The notes: generated by a model not told the origin, from the sequence alone. DNA of 64,000 bases from Flavobacteriaceae bacterium (GCA_947464335.1 CANHWG010000003.1:1-64000), one strand, 5' to 3'. Positions 25,214 to 37,213 are shown, numbered from the stretch's first letter. Made by a program: numbers and translations.

Positions 25214-26179
25214 TTATTGTCTACTCTGAACGTAATCTGACAATTCATCAACATTGGAACTAAATGAAAAGATTCCGTTTAATTTGAAATAGTTTCTTGG
25301 CTCAATACAAAAATCATAAGCATATTTGGCAAACTCCAATTTATTATCTTCAAAGCTAAAAGTATTTGCAATTTGAATAATTTGGTCTACGTTCAAACAG
25401 TTGGCTGTAATAACTTGCTTAGCTGTTTTTAACCTAGTATCTTCAAAACTTTGATTTTTTATTGTTGACAGTGCCGCATTGAAATTTCCGGGTGTCATAC
25501 ATGATCTTCCGCCGCAACCTATAATTGGCTCATTGTGATCCACAATAATTGTATTTGAATTATTTGTAGTCGTTGTAGTTGTAGTTTGAGTAATTGCTCC
25601 GCCACCAATGTTATCATTGATAGAAACGCCCATTCCCAAATTAACGCCACCAACATTTACTCCAACACCAACATTTACTCCACCAGAGTTTACTGCATTT
25701 GTTTGCGTAGTTGTTGTTGTAGTAGTTTGAGAAACGCCACCAATTGGTTGAGCAACAACAGGTCTTGGTTGACCATAGTGAATTACATGAACATTAGAAG
25801 GTGGAATAAAATCAGGAACAACAGGAATAGCTGAAAAATAATTCATCTTCATTTTGGTTTTGTTGTTTTTGTCTCTTCTAATTTTATAGGTAACATCGGT
25901 AAAAATACCATCAACATCAGCAATCATCAAATTGTTTTTAGAGACATCCGCTAATGATGGGTCAGCAAATCTGATTTTAGCATTGTAATAAGGTTGGTTT
26001 AAATCCTCAACTCTTAGATTGGTTTGTGGTGTGTCGTTAATGATTTCTCCATTCAAGATAAGGGTAAACTTATCACCGTCTTCAGAAAAAATAGTCAGGT
26101 GTCCAACTGGTCCACCAGGTTGAGCAAAAGTTAATGAAGAAATTAACAATGCTGCTAAGAATGTAATCTTTCTAATCAT
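25214..26179 (-). CDS. Secreted DUF4476 domain protein with low-complexity middle
   Basis: I chose the ATG at 26179 (MIRKITFLAALLISSLTFAQ, a clear signal peptide), which gives 321 residues. The N-terminal 110 residues form a beta-rich domain (HLTIFSEDGDKFTLILNGE...VTYKIRRDKNNKTKMK). The centre is low-complexity: two runs of seven threonines (TTTTTTT) and a Gly-Val-Asn stretch (GGVNVGVGVNVGGVNLG). The last 95 residues (MTPGNFNAALSTIKNQSFEDTRLKTAKQVI...) match DUF4476, common in Bacteroidota and of unknown function. The promoter is good and the gene is monocistronic. Confidence 0.85.
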   Translation of the reverse strand: MIRKITFLAALLISSLTFAQPGGPVGHLTIFSEDGDKFTLILNGEIINDTPQTNLRVEDLNQPYYNAKIRFADPSLADVSKNNLMIADVDGIFTDVTYKIRRDKNNKTKMKMNYFSAIPVVPDFIPPSNVHVIHYGQPRPVVAQPIGGVSQTTTTTTTQTNAVNSGGVNVGVGVNVGGVNLGMGVSINDNIGGGAITQTTTTTTTNNSNTIIVDHNEPIIGCGGRSCMTPGNFNAALSTIKNQSFEDTRLKTAKQVITANCLNVDQIIQIANTFSFEDNKLEFAKYAYDFCIEPRNYFKLNGIFSFSSNVDELSDYVQSRQ

Positions 26180-26202
26180 ATTTAATTTTTTTTTTAGTGT
26201 GA

Positions 26203-26236
26203 CAAATATATTTATTTTATTTTTTCGAGTTGTCAA
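26203..26236 (-). promoter_or_regulatory. Promoter of the DUF4476 gene
   Basis: On the minus strand TTG is followed after 23 bases by TATATTTG, and the ATG lies 23 bases further on. This is a good Bacteroidota -33/-7 match and supports the 26179 start. Confidence 0.65.
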
Positions 26237-26318
26237 AAACAATACCAAATAAAAAAGTAATTTATTAAAAATAGTAATTTGCTAGAAACTCTGTATATTT
26301 AAACTCTCTTAAATTATT

Positions 26319-28270: not shown

Positions 28271-28278
28271 TATTTTTG
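28271..28278 (+). promoter_or_regulatory. -7 promoter box of the first cytochrome/FG-GAP module
   Basis: TATTTTTG fits TAnnTTTG and lies 20 bases before the ATG at 28298. A corresponding box, TACATTTG (31614-31621), precedes the second module, so each module can be transcribed separately. Confidence 0.45.
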
Positions 28279-28297
28279 GGTGCAAAATTTTAAAAAT

Positions 28298-29392
28298 ATG
28301 ATAAAAAGATACCTTGCATTTGCCCTATGCATACTTTTAGCAGCAGCATACATTTCTTGTTCTGACGATGATGATGATTATGTACCAATTTCACCCGTTA
28401 CGGTAGACCTAACATCGGTTCCCTATCCTAAACTATCAGATTATAAATTTTTTCAAGGTAATCTTAAAGATCAAAACCCTTCGTTAAATGTTATTCCATA
28501 TGCTCCTGCCAGTAGTTTATTTACGGATTACGCATCTAAAAAGAGATTTATTTGGATGCCAAATGGCGCTACTGGAACCTATGTTGCTGATGATAAAATT
28601 TTAGATTTTCCTGTGGGAACGGCTCTAATTAAAACATTTTATTATACTACTATTCAGCCCGGAGATGTAACTAAAATAATTGAAACTCGATTAATGATTA
28701 GAAAAGAGGATGGTTGGAAATTTTATGAATATATATGGAACGAAGAACAAACTGATGCCGATTTAATGAACAGTTCTGATTTTTTGAATGGTAGTTCTAA
28801 AACCATATCATTTAAAAAACCAAATGGTGAATCCGTTACCACAGATTATAGAATTCCGTCTGATGCTGAATGTTTAGCTTGTCATAAAATTAATGAGATT
28901 CCAACTCCAATCGGAATTAAACCTCAAAATCTAAATCACAATTATAATTATGGTAATCAAAACAAAAACATACTACAAAAGTTAGTTGAGCAAGGTTATT
29001 TAGATAGTTATCCATCAAACATAGCTGCTGCAATTGATTATCATGATACTACAAAATCTTTAGAACTAAGAGCACGTTCTTATTTAGATATAAATTGCGC
29101 ACATTGTCACCAAGATGATGCGCGTTGCTTTTATAGACCAATTCGACTTGGGTTTGGCTTGACTAATATGGATTCTAACATTGGAATATGTGTGGATGCG
29201 GATGAGCCATTTAGTCCAAGTTTACAAAAGATAATCACTCCTGGAAACTTTAACAAGTCTGTGATGCATTATCGATTAAATTCGAACGATGAAAGTATAC
29301 GAATGCCTATGTTCGGAAGATCTATCATTCATGAAGAAGGCGTAGCCCTAATTAGAGAATATATAGCATCACTAACACAAACTTGTAATTAA
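28298..29392 (+). CDS. Diheme c-type cytochrome lipoprotein (SO2930-like), copy 1
   Basis: ATG 28298 (not the GTG at 28280) begins a lipoprotein signal ending ISC, giving 364 residues. The Cys is followed by SDDDDD, which fits the acidic surface-export signal known for Flavobacterium lipoproteins, so the mature protein is probably on the cell surface. Two haem c sites are seen: CLACH in the middle and CAHCH in YLDINCAHCHQDDARC. A Met in RMPMFGR may be an axial ligand. The conserved VDLTxVPYPKLSDYKFF N-terminus and whole layout match the SO2930/HNE_0200-type diheme family as I recall it. It pairs with the next gene (17-base gap). Confidence 0.85.
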   Translation: MIKRYLAFALCILLAAAYISCSDDDDDYVPISPVTVDLTSVPYPKLSDYKFFQGNLKDQNPSLNVIPYAPASSLFTDYASKKRFIWMPNGATGTYVADDKILDFPVGTALIKTFYYTTIQPGDVTKIIETRLMIRKEDGWKFYEYIWNEEQTDADLMNSSDFLNGSSKTISFKKPNGESVTTDYRIPSDAECLACHKINEIPTPIGIKPQNLNHNYNYGNQNKNILQKLVEQGYLDSYPSNIAAAIDYHDTTKSLELRARSYLDINCAHCHQDDARCFYRPIRLGFGLTNMDSNIGICVDADEPFSPSLQKIITPGNFNKSVMHYRLNSNDESIRMPMFGRSIIHEEGVALIREYIASLTQTCN

Positions 29393-29409
29393 TAAACAAT
29401 TCATATCTA

Positions 29410-31455
29410 ATGAAAAAAACTACCTTTTTAATTGCTTTGATTTTTAGCATGTCTTTTGTTAAAGCTCAAACAAATTGTGGTAACGCCGTATCGGTATTAT
29501 TAAACTCTACGACTACTGCACCTTCATTTACCAATGAAACAGGAACGCCGCCAACTGCGTTTTGTGGATTAAATAATAGCAACCAAAATCCAACCAAAGG
29601 AAAATGGTATAAATTTACCCCAACACAAAATATGAACATTACGGTAACTACTGTTTTGCCTCAAAATAATAATATTGATACTCGGTTAATTATTTATTCC
29701 GGCAACTGTAATGCCCTGGTTTGCGTAGGATCTAGTGATGATTTTAACGGAGCAAATACTTCAGAAGTGACTTTTGCTGCAACAATTGGAAGCACTTATA
29801 CCATTGCATTTGATAATCGTTTTAGTAATGCTGGTTTTGATTTTAAAGTTACAGAAGCTGCTCCTCCAGCACCAGACAGACTATCATTTACTTCTACTTC
29901 AGTAACAGGAATAACAGGTGGCTACAATAATTGTATCGCTGATATGAATGGTGATTTTTTAGATGATATAATTTCAGCTGTAAGTACAACACAATTAGTC
30001 ATAACCTATCAAGGAACAAATGGTGTTTTTACTTCTACAACATATCCACTAACAAGCACTTCCGTATTGCCTTCATGGAGTATTGCAGCAGGTGATTATG
30101 ACAATAATGGCTATAATGATTTAATTTATGGATCAGGAACTGGTGTAGCTTTTTTAAAAGCAAATAGCACAGGAACTGGTTATACAACAGATAGAAAGAC
30201 ACAATCCTATTTAGTACAAAGAACTAATTTTATAGATATTAATAACGATGGGAAGCTCGACGCTTTTGCTTGTGATGATAATGCCCCAAATAGATATTAC
30301 ATGAACGATGGAACAAACCTAAATCATATTCAAGGCGGAATTGGTGATTTCCCTTCTGGAGGAAACTATGCGTCTAATTGGTTTGATTATGACAATGATG
30401 GCGATATCGATATGTATATGGCAAAATGTGGTCAAGGTGGTTCTGGTGTTGGAGGTAATATTGATGAGTTTCATAGAAATAATGGTAATGGAACTTTTAC
30501 TAATGTAGCGGCATCTATCGGCATGGCTAATCCTGAACAAACATGGTCTGGCGCTTGTGGCGATTTTAACAATGACGGATGGATGGATGTAATCGTAGGT
30601 GTTAACTCGGCAAGCAATGGATATTCAAATGTGAAGAGAAATAATGGAGATGGAACGTTTACAAGTGTAACAGCAGGATCTGGATACGACACAAACACAT
30701 CGTTGGGTAGAGAATATGTAACACAAGATTTTGATAATGATGGATTCCTTGATGTGTTAGGTTCAGGTAGCAATATTATGTTTGGTGATGGAAACTTTCG
30801 TTTTACACCAAACCCAAACACCTATCCTGTCTCTAACTTTGATAGACCCATAGGTGATTTAAATAATGATGGCTTTTTAGATATCCAAAACGGAACTAAT
30901 GTTTTATTTAACAATGGAAACTCAAACAAATGGTTGAATGTAAACCTACGTGGAATAGAGAGCAATAGAAATGGTATAGGAGCACGAATTGAAATATATG
31001 GTTCTTGGGGCAAACAAATAAGATATGTGCAAAGCGGAACTGGTTTTCAAAACATGAGTACTATAACAGCTCATTTTGGAATTGGTCAAGCCACTACAAT
31101 TACTCAAGTTATCATTAAATGGCCATCAGGTACAATTGACACGCTAATTAATGTAAATCCAAATCAAAACCTTTTGGTAGTTGAAGGATCAACGCTTGCA
31201 ATTAATTCATTTAATAATGGAGTGTTTTCTATTTATCCAAATCCTGTAAAAAACAACATTAATATTCAGATAAAAGATACTATATCAGTTGTATTAAAAT
31301 CAGCTTTAGTATATGATTTAAATGGAAAAGTAGTTCTTTCAACAGACAATCTAAATCAACCTATTAATGTTGAAAATCTTGCATCAGGCACTTACATTTT
31401 ATCCATTTCTGATTCAGAAAACAGAAATTACAGTCAAAAATTTATCAAAGAATAA
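29410..31455 (+). CDS. FG-GAP/VCBS and ASPIC-UnbV repeat protein with T9SS sorting domain, copy 1
   Basis: The 681-residue protein has a signal peptide (to VKAQ) and a CUB/PPC-like N-domain (KGKWYKFTPTQNMNITV ... IDTRLIIYSGNC). Next comes a beta-propeller of FG-GAP/VCBS units with calcium-type loops such as DYDNNGYND, DINNDGKLD, DYDNDGDID, DFNNDGWMD and DLNNDGFLD. An ASPIC/UnbV domain follows (WLNVNLRGIESNRNGIGARIEI ... HFGIGQATTITQVIIKWPSG). The end (IYPNPVKNNINI...LASGTYILSISDSENRNYSQKFIKE) is a T9SS type A sorting domain. It is secreted and probably surface-bound. Function unknown; the partner is the diheme cytochrome just upstream. Confidence 0.88.
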   Translation: MKKTTFLIALIFSMSFVKAQTNCGNAVSVLLNSTTTAPSFTNETGTPPTAFCGLNNSNQNPTKGKWYKFTPTQNMNITVTTVLPQNNNIDTRLIIYSGNCNALVCVGSSDDFNGANTSEVTFAATIGSTYTIAFDNRFSNAGFDFKVTEAAPPAPDRLSFTSTSVTGITGGYNNCIADMNGDFLDDIISAVSTTQLVITYQGTNGVFTSTTYPLTSTSVLPSWSIAAGDYDNNGYNDLIYGSGTGVAFLKANSTGTGYTTDRKTQSYLVQRTNFIDINNDGKLDAFACDDNAPNRYYMNDGTNLNHIQGGIGDFPSGGNYASNWFDYDNDGDIDMYMAKCGQGGSGVGGNIDEFHRNNGNGTFTNVAASIGMANPEQTWSGACGDFNNDGWMDVIVGVNSASNGYSNVKRNNGDGTFTSVTAGSGYDTNTSLGREYVTQDFDNDGFLDVLGSGSNIMFGDGNFRFTPNPNTYPVSNFDRPIGDLNNDGFLDIQNGTNVLFNNGNSNKWLNVNLRGIESNRNGIGARIEIYGSWGKQIRYVQSGTGFQNMSTITAHFGIGQATTITQVIIKWPSGTIDTLINVNPNQNLLVVEGSTLAINSFNNGVFSIYPNPVKNNINIQIKDTISVVLKSALVYDLNGKVVLSTDNLNQPINVENLASGTYILSISDSENRNYSQKFIKE

Positions 31456-31478
31456 TTTGTATTTGAATACTTTTACAA

Positions 31479-31506
31479 AACGCTCTTAATCAAGAGCGTT
31501 TTTTGT
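31479..31506 (+). terminator. Terminator after the first cytochrome/FG-GAP module
   Basis: AACGCTCTT-AATC-AAGAGCGTT forms a perfect nine-base stem followed by TTTTTTG. It ends module 1 before the second module's own promoter. Confidence 0.85.
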
Positions 31507-31640
31507 TTATTAGAAGTTTAGTGAATTCTACTAAAACACATATAAATCAAAAGAATAAATAAAAAATTTTGGTCAAAATCTGTTAATTTTTTATAATTCA
31601 TGAATATAAATATTACATTTGACAGTATTTTAAAAAATCT

Positions 31641-32768
31641 ATGAGAAAACATTATTTTCTGTTATCTATTCTATTTCTATCCTTTACAATTATTATAGGT
31701 TGTTCAGATAACGATGAATATATACCTGTTTCTCCTGTAACTGTTGATTTGACTCAAGTTCCCTATCCCAAATTATCGGATTATAAGTTTTTTGAGGGTG
31801 ATATGAAAAATCAAATTCCATCCTTAAATGTTTTACCCTACGAACCAGCATCATCATTATTTTCTGACTATGCTCACAAAAAAAGATTTGTTTGGATGCC
31901 TAATGGAACGAAAGCAGCATTTGTAGCAGATGATAAAGAATTAGAATTACCTGTTGGTGCCGCTTTGATTAAAACATTTTATTACGATAATGTACAAAAT
32001 ATCACCCCAATAGGTGGAAGAAGAATTATTGAAACTCGGGTTATGATTAAAAAAGCAAGTGGCTGGATATTTGCTGAATATGTTTGGAACGCAGAACAAA
32101 CGGAAGCTTATTTTGACTTAGCTGGTAGTTTTACCGACATTTCTTGGAAAGACGAAAACAACATAATTAAAAGTACCAATTATAGAATTCCAACTGAAGT
32201 TCAATGTATTATTTGCCACAAGAATAAAGAAATGGTGGGAACTACCGAAATAACTACTTTTATCCCAATTGGTATTAAACCCCAAAATTTAAATTTTAGT
32301 TATACCTACGGTAATGAAACAAAAAATCAATTAACCAAATGGATTGAAGTAGGTTTTTTGGAAAACAATTTCACAATACCGTCCTCCGAAAATACAATAA
32401 TCAATTACAGCGATAATACACAACCTTTAGAAAAAAGAGTACGTTCCTATTTAGATATTAATTGCGCACATTGTCATGCCCCAAAGAGACATTGTGATTA
32501 TAGACCAATGCGTTTAGCTTTTAGTGAAACTGGTGGTGTAAATGGCCGAACGAATATGGGAGTTTGTGTAAATACTGAAGATTTCAGCTTTGCACCAGCT
32601 TTAACAAAAATTATCCAACCAGGAAATGTTAACAGGTCAATGCTTTTTTATAGAATTAACACCGCTGATGAATCCTTTAGAATGCCATTACATGGCAGAA
32701 CCATTAAACATGACGAAGGAATAGAAATGATGCGAGAATGGATAAATTCATTATCTGCATGTCCATAA
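31641..32768 (+). CDS. Diheme c-type cytochrome lipoprotein (SO2930-like), copy 2
   Basis: This 375-residue paralogue of the 28298 gene is alike end to end (VSPVTVDLTQVPYPKLSDYKFF, LNVLPYEPASSLFSDYAHKKRFVWMPNG, RSYLDINCAHCHAPKRHC, RMPLHGR). The lipobox IIGC is followed by SDNDE, again an acidic surface-export signal. Haem sites are CIICH and CAHCH. Differences are a slightly longer centre and altered residues around the first haem. The next gene starts 44 bases later, so the two are co-transcribed. The reaction is unknown; the family is predicted to carry electrons outside the cell. Confidence 0.85.
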   Translation: MRKHYFLLSILFLSFTIIIGCSDNDEYIPVSPVTVDLTQVPYPKLSDYKFFEGDMKNQIPSLNVLPYEPASSLFSDYAHKKRFVWMPNGTKAAFVADDKELELPVGAALIKTFYYDNVQNITPIGGRRIIETRVMIKKASGWIFAEYVWNAEQTEAYFDLAGSFTDISWKDENNIIKSTNYRIPTEVQCIICHKNKEMVGTTEITTFIPIGIKPQNLNFSYTYGNETKNQLTKWIEVGFLENNFTIPSSENTIINYSDNTQPLEKRVRSYLDINCAHCHAPKRHCDYRPMRLAFSETGGVNGRTNMGVCVNTEDFSFAPALTKIIQPGNVNRSMLFYRINTADESFRMPLHGRTIKHDEGIEMMREWINSLSACP

Positions 32769-32812
32769 ATAAAATCAAAAGTATAATCAAAAATAAAATC
32801 AAACTTAAAAAA

Positions 32813-34879
32813 ATGAAAAAATTTACTTTACTATTTACATTGCTCTTTTTTGTTCAATGGTCAAATGCACAAGACACCTGTGCTAGTGCATCTGTAATTT
32901 CTGGCCCAGGTACATTTGTTGTTGGTGTGATAAACGGAACAGCACCTACATTAATTTGTGCTGATAATGGAGTTAATGATCAGACAAATCCAGGTCCTAG
33001 AGGAGAATGGTATATTTATACACCTACAGCAAACCGCACTGTAACCATAACCACTGATATTGTTGCCAATACCCCAAGAAGAGACACTCGTATTCACGTT
33101 TATACTGGAACTTGTGGTTCATTAACTTGTTTTGCTGGTGATGATGATAGTGGTGCTGATTTTTCTTCGGTTGCCGTATTTAATGTAACAGCTGGTACAC
33201 CTTACATCATTGCTTTTGACAATAAATGGATGGGAGGAGCTCAAAATAATGGGTTTAGTTTTCAACTAACTGAAACAGCAATCGTTGTTCCTCCTGTAAC
33301 TCCAATTACCTATACAACACAAACAATAAGTTCTGTGAACAGTGCGTACAATATCTGTGTTACGGATATGGATGGTGATAAAATTGACGATATTGTGGGG
33401 GTAAGTTCTAATAATTTGAGAGTAAATTACCAAAGAACAGGTGGTACTTTTACAACGACTGATTATCCAATTTCAGGAGTAAGTGAAATGCCAACTTGGA
33501 GTATGGCCGCTGGAGATTATAATAGAGATGGTCAAACCGATGTGATTTTAGGAAGTGGGCAAGGATTATCTATATGGAAGTCGAACGGAAGTACTAATTA
33601 TACTAACATTACTCCGGGAAATTATATTTTTTGTCAGAGAACCAATTTTGCTGATTTAAATAATGATGGTAATTTGGATATTTTTTCATGCCATGATATT
33701 GCTCCAAATTGCTATTATTTGAATGCAGGTGGCACCACAAACAATTTAACCTTTTACCAATCAAACGTAACTCCAGGCGCTATGAGTTTAGGAATAAGCG
33801 GAGGTAATTATGCTACATTATTTTCTGATTTTGATAATGATGGTGACAGTGATGTTTTCATTTCTAAATGTTCTGGACCTCCATGTGAATTAATCAGAAA
33901 TGATGGAAATGGAGTCTATACCGATATTTCAGCAATTGCTGGAATTAATGTTACACCAATTCAAACCTGGTCATCTGCCATTGGTGATTTTGATAATGAT
34001 GGAGATATGGACATCATTATTACGGCAAGTTCAGGTACACATCGATATTTCAGAAACAATCTTGACACGACCAATAGCGTAGAAGAAGCATACACCAATA
34101 TTACTGCAGGTTCTGGTTGGGACACTAATGCATCAATCAATATTGACAATATAACTTATGATTTTGACAATAACGGATTTCTTGATGTAATAGGTGGTGG
34201 AAACAAAATCATGTTTAATCAAGGCAATAGTACTTTTGCTCCGATTAGTTATTCTGGAATTGCAGTTGGTGCTGTTGGCGATTTAAATAACGATGGTTTC
34301 TTAGATATTTTGAACGGAAGTACAATTCGTTATGCTGTTCCAAATACTAATAATTGGATTAAAGTTTCATTGCAAGGAATTCAGAGTAACATAAACGGAA
34401 TTGGGGCTCGAATTGAAATTTATGGCACTTGGGGCAAACAAATTAGAGATGTAAGAAGTGGAGAAGGATTTAAATTCATGAGTTCTTTAAATGCGCATTT
34501 TGGTATTGGTCAAGCAACAGTTATAGACAGAGTGGTAATTAAATGGCCTTCTGGGGCAGTTGATACTATAGATAATGTAAACATAAATCAAAGATTATTC
34601 GTTGTAGAAGGTTCAACCTTAGCTGTAAATGCATTCAATAATGGTGTGTTTTCGGTTTATCCAAATCCGGCAAAAGATGTGGTGAACATTCAATTCAAAA
34701 ACAATCTAAGCATTACTCCTACTTCAGCAGCTGTATATGATTTAAATGGTAAAGTGGTATTGAGTACATTTGATTTGACACAACCTATTAATATTGAAAA
34801 ATTAGCCTCTGGGACTTATATTTTATCAATCTCTGATTCAGAAAATAGAAATTACGGTCAAAAATTCATCAAGGAATAA
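32813..34879 (+). CDS. FG-GAP/VCBS and ASPIC-UnbV repeat protein with T9SS sorting domain, copy 2
   Basis: The track opens 75 bases upstream inside the cytochrome gene. ATG 32813 begins the signal peptide MKKFTLLFTLLFFVQWSNAQ and gives 688 residues. Domain order equals copy 1: N-terminal carbohydrate/CUB-like domain (RGEWYIYTPTANRTVTI ... DTRIHVYTGTC), FG-GAP propeller (DFDNDGDSD, DFDNDGDMD, DLNNDGFLD), ASPIC/UnbV (WIKVSLQGIQSNINGIGARIEI ... HFGIGQATVIDRVVIKWPSG) and a T9SS tail. The last 30 residues are nearly identical to copy 1, apart from a single change in the final motif (NYGQKFIKE against NYSQKFIKE). A bidirectional terminator follows. Confidence 0.88.
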   Translation: MKKFTLLFTLLFFVQWSNAQDTCASASVISGPGTFVVGVINGTAPTLICADNGVNDQTNPGPRGEWYIYTPTANRTVTITTDIVANTPRRDTRIHVYTGTCGSLTCFAGDDDSGADFSSVAVFNVTAGTPYIIAFDNKWMGGAQNNGFSFQLTETAIVVPPVTPITYTTQTISSVNSAYNICVTDMDGDKIDDIVGVSSNNLRVNYQRTGGTFTTTDYPISGVSEMPTWSMAAGDYNRDGQTDVILGSGQGLSIWKSNGSTNYTNITPGNYIFCQRTNFADLNNDGNLDIFSCHDIAPNCYYLNAGGTTNNLTFYQSNVTPGAMSLGISGGNYATLFSDFDNDGDSDVFISKCSGPPCELIRNDGNGVYTDISAIAGINVTPIQTWSSAIGDFDNDGDMDIIITASSGTHRYFRNNLDTTNSVEEAYTNITAGSGWDTNASINIDNITYDFDNNGFLDVIGGGNKIMFNQGNSTFAPISYSGIAVGAVGDLNNDGFLDILNGSTIRYAVPNTNNWIKVSLQGIQSNINGIGARIEIYGTWGKQIRDVRSGEGFKFMSSLNAHFGIGQATVIDRVVIKWPSGAVDTIDNVNINQRLFVVEGSTLAVNAFNNGVFSVYPNPAKDVVNIQFKNNLSITPTSAAVYDLNGKVVLSTFDLTQPINIEKLASGTYILSISDSENRNYGQKFIKE

Positions 34880-34897: not shown

Positions 34898-34933
34898 AAA
34901 AAAAACGTCCCGAATATTTCGGGACGTTTTTTT
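34898..34933. terminator. Bidirectional terminator between FG-GAP copy 2 and the DUF5777 gene
   Basis: AAAAAACGTCCCGAA pairs with TTCGGGACGTTTTTT across a TAT loop, with A- and T-runs on both flanks. The genes converge here. Confidence 0.9.
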
Positions 34934-34955: not shown

Positions 34956-35795
34956 TTAGAATACTCTTAATAAATTAAATCCAAAGAAAATATCGCCTTT
35001 AGTCCAATCTCCAGTTGTATTGCCTAAAAAACCCGCTTCATGAATTCCTTGAGAGCTACTTAAATGCATTTGAAATACATGACCTCCGGTTTCTAAATCA
35101 ACTCCCAAAGAAAGTGGATTTTTAAAAGGTGAAGTACTAGCTCTATTTAAATGAGCTGCATAATCTAAATTCACAGACCAACGCTTTGCAAATTTATACC
35201 TTCCTCCCATTCCGATAAGAAATTGACTATTGTCTTGATTGTCGTCAATAACAAAATTCTCATGCAAATAAGTTGGAGCCAATTGCAACGATAATTTATT
35301 ATTAAACTTTCTAGAAACTAATAATTGCGAAACATAAATTAATCTATTTTCAAATTCCATTTTTGGATAATTACTTTCTTTTAACGTATTATTAAAACCA
35401 ATACTTGAAAAAGCTGCTATTGCCACAGGAAAACCATTTTCTTCTTGTGATTTTAATAAAAATTTACCCGAAAAATCATAAGCCAATTCAGTTCTTCCGG
35501 CACTAACAGTCAACCAGTCACTTATACCATAAACAAATTTTAATTGAGTAACCGCATTATCAAGTCCGTACGCGCCTTCAAAACCATCCTTAAGTGAACC
35601 AAATCTATGGGCAACAATAAAATATAAATCGCCTTTTGCTGCTAATTTTGTAGATTCTAGATTTACAATTTTCAAAGCTTTAAAAGCTGATTCTACTTTG
35701 CTTTTGGATGTAGTTACTGTATCAATATCTTTTAACAAATCCTCTTGAGCAATCAAAGTAAAAGGCAACAATAGTAAAAGTGCTATTTTTTTCAT
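34956..35795 (-). CDS. DUF5777 family outer-membrane beta-barrel protein
   Basis: The 279-residue protein has a signal peptide (MKKIALLLLLPFTLIAQ). The rest has alternating aromatic and polar strands of a small beta-barrel, with NLESTKLAAKGDLYFIVAHRFG at the start and a terminal aromatic residue in DIFFGFNLLRVF, as in outer-membrane proteins. It fits DUF5777, which has no assigned role. The OB-fold gene lies 20 bases upstream on the same strand, and cytochrome plus YceI genes are divergent, a grouping I believe recurs in Bacteroidota. Confidence 0.8.
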   Translation of the reverse strand: MKKIALLLLLPFTLIAQEDLLKDIDTVTTSKSKVESAFKALKIVNLESTKLAAKGDLYFIVAHRFGSLKDGFEGAYGLDNAVTQLKFVYGISDWLTVSAGRTELAYDFSGKFLLKSQEENGFPVAIAAFSSIGFNNTLKESNYPKMEFENRLIYVSQLLVSRKFNNKLSLQLAPTYLHENFVIDDNQDNSQFLIGMGGRYKFAKRWSVNLDYAAHLNRASTSPFKNPLSLGVDLETGGHVFQMHLSSSQGIHEAGFLGNTTGDWTKGDIFFGFNLLRVF

Positions 35796-35815
35796 AATTA
35801 TTTTTGTTTATTCAT

Positions 35816-36205
35816 TTAATGATTAATGGTACATTGATCCATTTGGATCTCTTCTAAAATATCGTTGTATCCAATAACTCTACCTTTCAAAGTTATAGTA
35901 TTCTGTAATTTTATAGATTGATGTTTACCATTTGAATACCTAGCAAGTAGCTTATCATCTAACGTAATTATCATGTTTACTGAATCGATATTCGTAATTT
36001 TACCGTGAACTTCGATAGTCTTATCGCTATATTTTTTATTCGCTAAGCTATCGTTTTGTTTAAAAGCAGTATGAATTTCATTTACTGAAATTGAAAAAGA
36101 AGCAGTTTCAGTTGCAATATCTCTATGGTTTTTATAAACATAATTATAGCCAATCAAAGCCAAAGCTAAAAGGACAATTATAACAATTACTATTTTCTTT
36201 TTCAT
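35816..36205 (-). CDS. Membrane-anchored OB-fold (tRNA_anti-like) protein
   Basis: ATG 36205 is preferred over the TTG at 36214, giving 129 residues. An N-terminal helix (KIVIVIIVLLALALIGYNYVY) anchors it, and the rest is one OB-fold: VNEIHTAFKQNDSLANKKYSDKTIEVHGKI, then MIITLDDK and TLKGRVIGYNDILEEIQMDQC. This matches the tRNA_anti-like group of small envelope proteins, whose ligand is unknown. It is the first gene before DUF5777. Minus-strand boxes TAAATTTG and TAATTTTG lie just upstream. Confidence 0.75.
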   Translation of the reverse strand: MKKKIVIVIIVLLALALIGYNYVYKNHRDIATETASFSISVNEIHTAFKQNDSLANKKYSDKTIEVHGKITNIDSVNMIITLDDKLLARYSNGKHQSIKLQNTITLKGRVIGYNDILEEIQMDQCTINH

Positions 36206-36302
36206 AAAAATCAAAATTAAATTATCACAAATTTAAATTAATTAATAATAACTCAATATTTTTACTAACTTTATTATGTTTTTATAATTAAACAAAATTA
36301 CT

Positions 36303-36668
36303 ATGAATAGATTAATATCATCTTTACTTCTTATCTCTCTTGGATTACTTCAATTTGGATGCACAAATGATTCAGCATCCGACCTAGTTGAAGATTCAAT
36401 TATTGTTGAAGAAATTACGTTTACTAATACCGTAAAAAACATTGTGGACAATAACTGCATTGTTTGCCATGCAGCTACTCCAGTATTTGGAGCGCCAATG
36501 TCATTAGTTACCTATGCTGATGTTAAAAATGCAGTTCAAAATAATGGTTTACTAGATAGAATTTCAAGAGCTCAAGGTGAATCAGGATTGATGCCTATTA
36601 CAACAAGGCTACCACAAGCTACTATTGATAAAATTGAGAGTTGGGCTGAAAATGGATTTCAACAATAA
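36303..36668 (+). CDS. Monoheme cytochrome c-like lipoprotein
   Basis: The 121-residue protein has a lipoprotein signal ending LLQFGC, then an acidic linker. A short cytochrome c domain follows with the haem site CIVCH in NNCIVCHAATP. A Met ligand candidate is in SGLMPITTRLP. It is a small soluble-type electron carrier tethered to the envelope. It is followed after 5 bases by the YceI gene and is divergent from the OB-fold/DUF5777 pair. Confidence 0.85.
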   Translation: MNRLISSLLLISLGLLQFGCTNDSASDLVEDSIIVEEITFTNTVKNIVDNNCIVCHAATPVFGAPMSLVTYADVKNAVQNNGLLDRISRAQGESGLMPITTRLPQATIDKIESWAENGFQQ

Positions 36669-36673
36669 GAACT

Positions 36674-37213
36674 ATGAAAACAAATTTATTATACTTACTA
36701 ATTTTACTATGTTTGAACAGTTTTGCTCAAAACAAAATGTTAACTAAAGTAGGAAAAATTACTTTTGAAGCTTCTGTTCCTGCTTTTGAAGAAGTAAAGG
36801 CAAAAAACGAATCAGTAACTTTTGTAATAAACCCAAGTTCTGGAGAAATTGCAAGTTTAGCGTTGATTAAAGGTTTTCGATTTAAAGTGGCTTTGATGGA
36901 AGAGCATTTTAACGAAAATTATATGGAAAGCGATTCGTACCCTAAAGCTATTTTTAAAGGAAAAATTGAAAATTTTGATATAAATAAAATAACTTCAATA
37001 GCAAAAGATTACACCATTAAAGGTTCGTTAGAAATGCACGGAAAATCTAAGGACATTACAATTAAAGCAAGTATAAAAAAATCGGGGGAAGGAATTGATA
37101 TTAATTCAAACTTCACTGTAAACACAGACGATTTTGGAATAGAAATCCCAAGTGTTGTAAGTAAAAAAGTCTCCAAAAAAGTAGCCGTAAAATTTGAGGC
37201 AACCTTAAAATAA
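36674..37213 (+). CDS. YceI family periplasmic protein
   Basis: This 179-residue protein has a signal peptide (to NSFAQ) and a YceI-like lipocalin-type barrel: KVGKITFEASVPAFEEVKAKN, IKGFRFKVALMEEHFNENYMESDSYPKAIFKGKI and YTIKGSLEMHGKSKDITI. YceI proteins bind isoprenoid or similar lipids, for example polyprenoids or ubiquinone-like molecules, in structures solved. The ligand here is unknown. It is the second gene of a cytochrome-YceI pair, which fits a quinone-linked redox role. That is inference. Confidence 0.88.
   Translation: MKTNLLYLLILLCLNSFAQNKMLTKVGKITFEASVPAFEEVKAKNESVTFVINPSSGEIASLALIKGFRFKVALMEEHFNENYMESDSYPKAIFKGKIENFDINKITSIAKDYTIKGSLEMHGKSKDITIKASIKKSGEGIDINSNFTVNTDDFGIEIPSVVSKKVSKKVAVKFEATLK

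Follow-up and report, generated by a model that had tools for sequence, protein, structure and literature searches.

The cytochrome SO_2930 has been listed as an outer-membrane/extracellular protein in Shewanella (PMC4837345). In other Bacteroidota orders, the SO2930 cytochrome gene adjoins a gene for a TIGR03805-like parallel beta-helix protein, and on a Novosphingobium plasmid it likewise lies beside a TIGR03805 beta-helix gene; the original prediction for the locus described here had named this neighbour correctly. The partner in Flavobacteriales thus differs from that found elsewhere. Lipoprotein export signals have been published as SDDFE for Flavobacterium johnsoniae and SDDDD for Bacteroides fragilis (PMC5080379). 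A CRTAC1-type FG-GAP gene has been described beside haem and propeller subunits in hydrazine-synthase-like clusters (PMC12758564). The pair of genes reported below was not found in the open-access papers searched.

Gene organization

The DNA analysed is a stretch of 64,000 nucleotides from a Flavobacteriaceae bacterium (GCA_947464335.1, CANHWG010000003.1:1-64000), here called the window. Positions 28298-34879 contain two operons, each with a diheme lipoprotein gene followed by an FG-GAP/UnbV propeller gene with a T9SS tail. Two such pairs had been predicted at these coordinates, and the open reading frames, the two CxxCH motifs in each lipoprotein and the profile matches bear this out. The units are composed as follows:

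28271..28278, plus strand: TAnnTTTG promoter-like box of unit 1, at -27 from the cyt1 ATG
28298..29392, plus strand: cyt1, SO2930-like diheme c-type cytochrome lipoprotein, 364 aa, clade 1, ATG start
29410..31455, plus strand: prop1, FG-GAP/UnbV propeller with signal peptide and T9SS tail, 681 aa, clade 1
31477..31502, plus strand: rho-independent terminator of unit 1, 11-bp stem, z=-4.3
31614..31621, plus strand: TAnnTTTG box of unit 2, at -27 from the cyt2 ATG
31641..32768, plus strand: cyt2, SO2930-like diheme c-type cytochrome lipoprotein, 375 aa, clade 2
32813..34879, plus strand: prop2, FG-GAP/UnbV propeller with T9SS tail, 688 aa, clade 2
34899..34933, plus strand: rho-independent terminator of unit 2, 16-bp stem

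The GTG at 28280 chosen by the ORF caller is a mere extension of cyt1, which starts at the ATG at 28298. Each pair had also been credited with its own TAnnTTTG box and with likeness from end to end. Both claims hold: the box stands at the same distance before the two cytochrome ATGs and is absent upstream of prop1 and prop2, and the pairs match throughout, with 53% identity between cyt1 and cyt2 and 49% between prop1 and prop2. The probability that TAnnTTTG occurs in both 60-nt leaders by chance was 0.0026 in a first-order Markov simulation. Because a box precedes the cytochrome gene and a terminator follows the propeller gene, each pair is read as one transcription unit. The ends of the two propeller genes (31360-31455 and 34784-34879, ~95 nt encoding the end of the T9SS tail) share 85% DNA identity, compared with about 42-68% for the rest; this may reflect gene conversion or a constrained sorting signal.

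Cytochromes

Both cytochromes match TIGR03806 over their whole length (model positions 3-314; E=9e-85 for cyt1 and 2.4e-81 for cyt2), at 284.6 and 273.3 bits; the curated cut-off, 313.3, is 29 to 40 bits higher. Each has exactly two CxxCH motifs, located at the positions of the family: CLACH and CAHCH in cyt1, CIICH and CAHCH in cyt2. The relevant sites are:

28358..28378, plus strand: cyt1 lipid Cys21 and acidic, export-signal-like stretch CSDDDDD
28607..28633, plus strand: cyt1 FPVGTALIK motif; its last residue, near-invariant Lys112, aligns by profile with the P460 cross-link lysine
28871..28885, plus strand: cyt1 haem 1 site CLACH
29096..29110, plus strand: cyt1 haem 2 site CAHCH
29126..29194, plus strand: cyt1 partner-specific loop with Cys277 and Cys298 (CFYRP...GICV)
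29300..29308, plus strand: cyt1 RMP, whose invariant Met336 is presumed to be the distal haem 2 ligand
31701..31718, plus strand: cyt2 lipid Cys21 and acidic stretch CSDNDE
32205..32219, plus strand: cyt2 haem 1 site CIICH
32463..32477, plus strand: cyt2 haem 2 site CAHCH
32493..32570, plus strand: cyt2 partner-specific two-Cys loop (CDYRP...GVCV)

Acidic residues stand at +2 to +6 after the lipid Cys in both proteins, and the N-termini CSDDDDD and CSDNDE are similar to the export signals of F. johnsoniae and B. fragilis. Propeller-linked cytochromes (n = 91) have on average 2.8 acidic residues at positions +2 to +7; for nearby lipoproteins (n = 63), a background drawn with a crude regular expression, the mean is 0.94. 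This enrichment, together with the likeness to published signals, supports the earlier proposal that the acidic stretch is a surface-export signal, and the cytochromes are probably displayed on the cell surface. In beta-helix-linked cytochromes the acidic signal is sparse, and several have no lipobox.

In an alignment of 116 cytochromes, both CxxCH motifs and the residues Met336, Glu129, Arg131, Trp140 and Tyr145 never vary. The same alignment contains no other family-wide His or Met besides two near-conserved residues: His269, itself part of CAHCH, and His345, for which some canonical SO2930 members have Asp. This pattern of conservation suggests that haem 1 probably has no fixed sixth ligand and would be an open site. 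The loop after haem 2 carries Cys277 and Cys298 in all but one of the propeller-linked cytochromes (105/106), and the two residues are absent from the aligned beta-helix-linked ones.

Propeller proteins

The second gene of each unit had been described as encoding a propeller-type protein with a T9SS tail, and this is confirmed by scores above cut-off. Both prop1 and prop2 pass the Pfam cut-offs for FG-GAP_3, FG-GAP, UnbV_ASPIC and Por_Secre_tail (66.7 and 69.2 bits for PF07593, 102.3 and 125.2 bits for PF13517), and their tails score 45.9 and 45.1 bits with TIGR04183 (T9SS type A), for which the cut-off is 23. N-terminal signal peptides were judged by eye. The features of the two proteins are:

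30268..30279, plus strand: prop1 signature ACDD with invariant Cys288
30424..30435, plus strand: prop1 signature KCGQ with invariant Cys340
30973..31173, plus strand: prop1 UnbV_ASPIC domain
31231..31452, plus strand: prop1 T9SS type A sorting domain
33686..33697, plus strand: prop2 signature SCHD, Cys equivalent to Cys288
33866..33877, plus strand: prop2 signature KCSG, Cys equivalent to Cys340
34397..34597, plus strand: prop2 UnbV_ASPIC domain
34655..34876, plus strand: prop2 T9SS type A sorting domain

Cys288 and Cys340 are present in every cytochrome-linked propeller (106/106). The general UnbV proteins aligned have mostly Thr/Ser/Gly and Asp/Glu at the Cys288/Cys340 positions and never both Cys; unlike these, the propeller of locus L213 has both Cys and adjoins a partial (cut) SO2930 match. 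The exchange of the beta-helix for the propeller is thus accompanied by the acidic export signal, the two-Cys loop after haem 2 and the two invariant propeller cysteines. These sequence changes, which track the partner, point to the loop after haem 2 as the place in which to seek a binding surface.

Gene linkage across genomes

The original prediction depended on the two genes occurring together, and the gene-neighbour search that it proposed finds their co-occurrence to be near-universal. Public genomes were searched with the cytochrome alignment, which gave 80 loci; neighbours in these were called with custom profiles. The propeller gene starts directly downstream of the cytochrome gene in 78 of the 80 loci, or 78 of 79 that are evaluable, with a median gap of 26 bp; in L154, L078 and L112, counted among the 78, the propeller is cut by the contig end. 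The contig of L137 ends before the next gene, which makes this locus not evaluable, and the true exception among the 79 is an orphan cytochrome in Flavobacterium cyanobacteriorum (L152). Orphans are rare; an orphan propeller bearing the Cys signatures was found at L207. The linked pair occurs in Flavobacterium, Chryseobacterium, Epilithonimonas, Fluviicola, Kordia, Lacinutrix and other genera, as well as in 20 further Flavobacteriaceae regions, a few of which are from genomes already among the 80 loci. It often follows mscL and the aspartate-semialdehyde dehydrogenase gene (asd), and in other genomes sdhB, or rmuC and a thioesterase gene. That it stays intact in differing chromosomal settings indicates that the pair moves as a unit.

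Expansion of the module is uneven: cytochrome-cytochrome-propeller arrays occur in L131, L140, L148 and L153, and L140 has three propellers in a row. Window positions 34956-37213 hold, on the minus strand 3' of the pairs, genes for a DUF5777 outer-membrane barrel and an OB-fold (tRNA_anti-like) protein and, beyond those on the plus strand, genes for a monohaem CIVCH lipoprotein and a YceI protein, 5 bp apart. In several Flavobacterium relatives, open reading frames sized like the DUF5777 and OB-fold genes come after the module. The DUF5777, OB-fold, monohaem and YceI genes were considered as parts of the module and rejected, as they do not track the pair in other genera. A secreted DUF4476 protein with Thr-rich stretches is encoded on the minus strand at window positions 25214-26248.

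Other SO2930-type genes were also found. A third cytochrome of this type in the same genome (L057 7580-10338, contig C21) directly follows a gene for a DUF6029 barrel and has neither of the loop cysteines; the DUF6029 barrel is perhaps another type of SO2930 partner. Diverged SO2930 cytochromes in L060 and L062 come after open reading frames of about 1005 and 610 aa, which are SusC/SusD-like by size alone. One genome encodes a 1600-aa fusion protein (L059 5097-9899) that combines a glucose/sorbosone (PQQ-type) dehydrogenase domain, an SO2930 diheme domain, Big_2 domains and a T9SS tail. This fusion supports the view that an SO2930 cytochrome can serve a secreted oxidoreductase.

Origin of the two copies

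Trees were built with FastTree. In the cytochrome tree (137 sequences), copy 1 groups with Chryseobacterium in a clade of 17 rows (support 100), and copy 2 belongs to another, of 39 rows (support 99); the propeller tree has matching clades of 16 rows (support 100) and 36 rows (support 100). The nearest relatives are in Flavobacterium, and F. sedimenticola, F. terrisoli and one MAG share the four-gene order. In L090, the two units stand in reversed order, with each cytochrome type still beside its propeller type. Ten genomes contain two pairs, and among these every comparison in which the difference was clear (21 in all, L090 included; threshold, 0.08 or more in the cytochrome identity sums) was concordant between cytochrome and propeller, the remaining comparisons being near zero. 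Physical linkage alone would suffice for such agreement between the cytochrome and propeller trees, which is possible without contact between the proteins.

A recent local tandem duplication was considered for the window and rejected, as the copies fall in separate, well-supported clades. By their placement in the trees, the two copies are ancient paralogues, and the pairs move as units. Of the tandem duplication originally predicted, the two side-by-side diverged copies stand, and the local duplication diverging in place does not. Tandem arrangements are present in other genera as well, with an independent tandem in marine genera (L043, L044, L046).

Possible relation to cytochrome P460

The N-terminal half of the cytochromes has weak profile similarity to cytochrome P460 (PF16694), reaching the C-terminal CxxCH, with a probability of 76% and a score of 35.6 in hhalign. 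The maximum for this comparison was 22.5 in 100 column shuffles and 27.9 in 50 unrelated real families. Lys112 is conserved at 97% and aligns with the P460 cross-link position, as deduced from an alignment with McCP-beta Phe61. The window cytochromes themselves gave no match to PF16694 at E<=5, and the relative L035 reached 19.1 bits against a gathering threshold of 27.

The fold search was done with an AF2 model of the cytochrome with a pLDDT of 95.2; an earlier model from 14 sequences was poor (pLDDT 66), and its fold search was set aside. There was no P460 chain in the 50 best matches and no solved structure of any fold at E<=0.001, the top match, 3msw of Bacteroides fragilis, being not significant. 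A PDB sequence search with the 14-sequence cytochrome profile returned nothing, and a wider profile only short cytochrome c matches around haem 1. With Pfam scores below threshold and P460 absent from the 50 best fold matches, P460 membership is kept as a lead only. The short Bacteroidota lipoproteins L174, L175 and L176 match P460 weakly (YPVGT...GWDFF...CxxCH) and could be intermediates between P460 and the SO2930 N-terminal half.

Proposed function

In the reading favoured from the anatomy of the proteins, a haem enzyme or redox protein sits on the cell surface and the propeller serves for binding. Each pair would be a transcription unit for an extracellular haem-protein/propeller complex with a redox function and an open haem 1, which we hold to be moderately probable. 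Gene linkage, co-inherited pair types, export signals, haem motifs and the partner-tied loop and Cys signatures are observed; surface display, physical contact, the open haem 1 and redox function are what we infer. After periplasmic maturation and then lipidation, the cytochrome would be brought by its acidic export signal to the outer face of the outer membrane and displayed there. The propeller would leave through the T9SS and dock on the cytochrome, in the role that the TIGR03805 beta-helix has elsewhere. Haem 2, with its CxxCH and invariant Met (His/Met), would transfer electrons. Haem 1, as the open site, would be where a small substrate or oxidant arrives, with the calcium-binding propeller holding the substrate or partner. 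The two paralogous copies, kept side by side, probably have different specificities.

Alternatively, the pair could be a surface electron-transfer wire for respiration or redox balance, in which both haems shuttle electrons without catalysis at haem 1 and the propeller is an adhesin or dock for minerals, humics or other cells. Diheme c-type proteins at the surface are a typical feature of extracellular electron transfer, an outside location is given for SO_2930 of Shewanella (PMC4837345), and the sequences of FG-GAP propellers are similar to those of integrin alpha heads and CRTAC1; however, the pair has two haems only, one of them without a conserved second ligand, and neither a porin-cytochrome conduit nor a multihaem partner is encoded beside it at the locus, and we regard such a wire as somewhat unlikely. 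A more specific enzyme would follow if SO2930 combined a P460-type haem domain, with haem 1, Lys112 as a possible cross-link and Glu129 and Arg131 in the pocket, and a class I cytochrome c domain. Flipped to the surface in Flavobacteriales and joined by the T9SS propeller, it might act on NO, hydroxylamine or peroxide. We treat this as a tentative and unlikely proposal; to our knowledge, this class of enzyme is undescribed on the outside of Bacteroidota.

The cytochrome might instead be a structural or sensory lipoprotein anchor, its haems serving stability or signalling; activity would then lie with the propeller, which could, for instance, be an adhesin for glycans or proteins. Calcium loops, T9SS export and extra N-terminal domains on the propellers suggest surface architecture, as does the Ig-type Big_9 spacer in some cytochromes (L040). 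An anchor is nevertheless hard to reconcile with the invariance of the CxxCH motifs and the five residues named above in 116 cytochromes, or with the retention of the SO2930 cytochrome family elsewhere beside an unrelated beta-helix partner, and this account is decidedly unlikely. That the genes are neighbours merely through shared regulation or chance, the proteins working apart, would suit the orphans at L152 and L207; adjacency that is near-universal in several contexts, rearrangement by units, subtype-matched pairing and paired sequence signatures make it highly improbable.

The function of the pair is probably extracellular. If haem 1 is open and reactive, the surface haem enzyme would belong to a large group of aerobic environmental bacteria. 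Cultivable Flavobacterium and Chryseobacterium carry the pair, which makes gene deletion feasible. The SO2930 haem family, spread over several phyla, is tied to two unrelated partner folds by lineage.

Comparison with known systems

To P460/cytochrome c'-beta proteins (PF16694) the N-terminal half of the window cytochromes bears a weak profile similarity that ends in CxxCH and places a near-invariant Lys at the cross-link position; the window proteins differ in scoring below the Pfam cut-off and in having an extra beta-hairpin and a fused second haem domain. SusD-type surface lipoproteins also have acidic residues right after the lipid Cys (PMC5080379), but the window pair is a haem protein module and not a SusCD pair. 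In the hydrazine-synthase-like clusters, the HZS alpha and beta-gamma homologues belong to families other than those of the window proteins, and no sequence link between the two sets was found. The closest PDB relative of the propeller by sequence is cartilage acidic protein 1 (9etn). Window propellers and CRTAC1/ASPIC-UnbV proteins have FG-GAP repeats followed by a UnbV_ASPIC domain in common, whereas the two invariant Cys, the T9SS tail and the linkage to a cytochrome distinguish the former.

The system of TIGR03806/SO2930 with TIGR03805 shares with the window pairs the whole-length cytochrome match, two CxxCH motifs, a lipoprotein or signal peptide, and a two-gene arrangement with a secreted beta-rich repeat protein. 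In contrast, the window cytochromes fall below the family cut-off, form a separate clade and carry a strong acidic export signal. Their partner is an FG-GAP/UnbV T9SS propeller encoded downstream, where the canonical partner is a beta-helix encoded upstream, and the CxYRP/GxCV two-Cys loop stands in place of the canonical GPAxxSG...KxPxAAGxGxG loop. The module is built from known families and is a conserved version, in Flavobacteriales, of a known, uncharacterised SO2930 pair.
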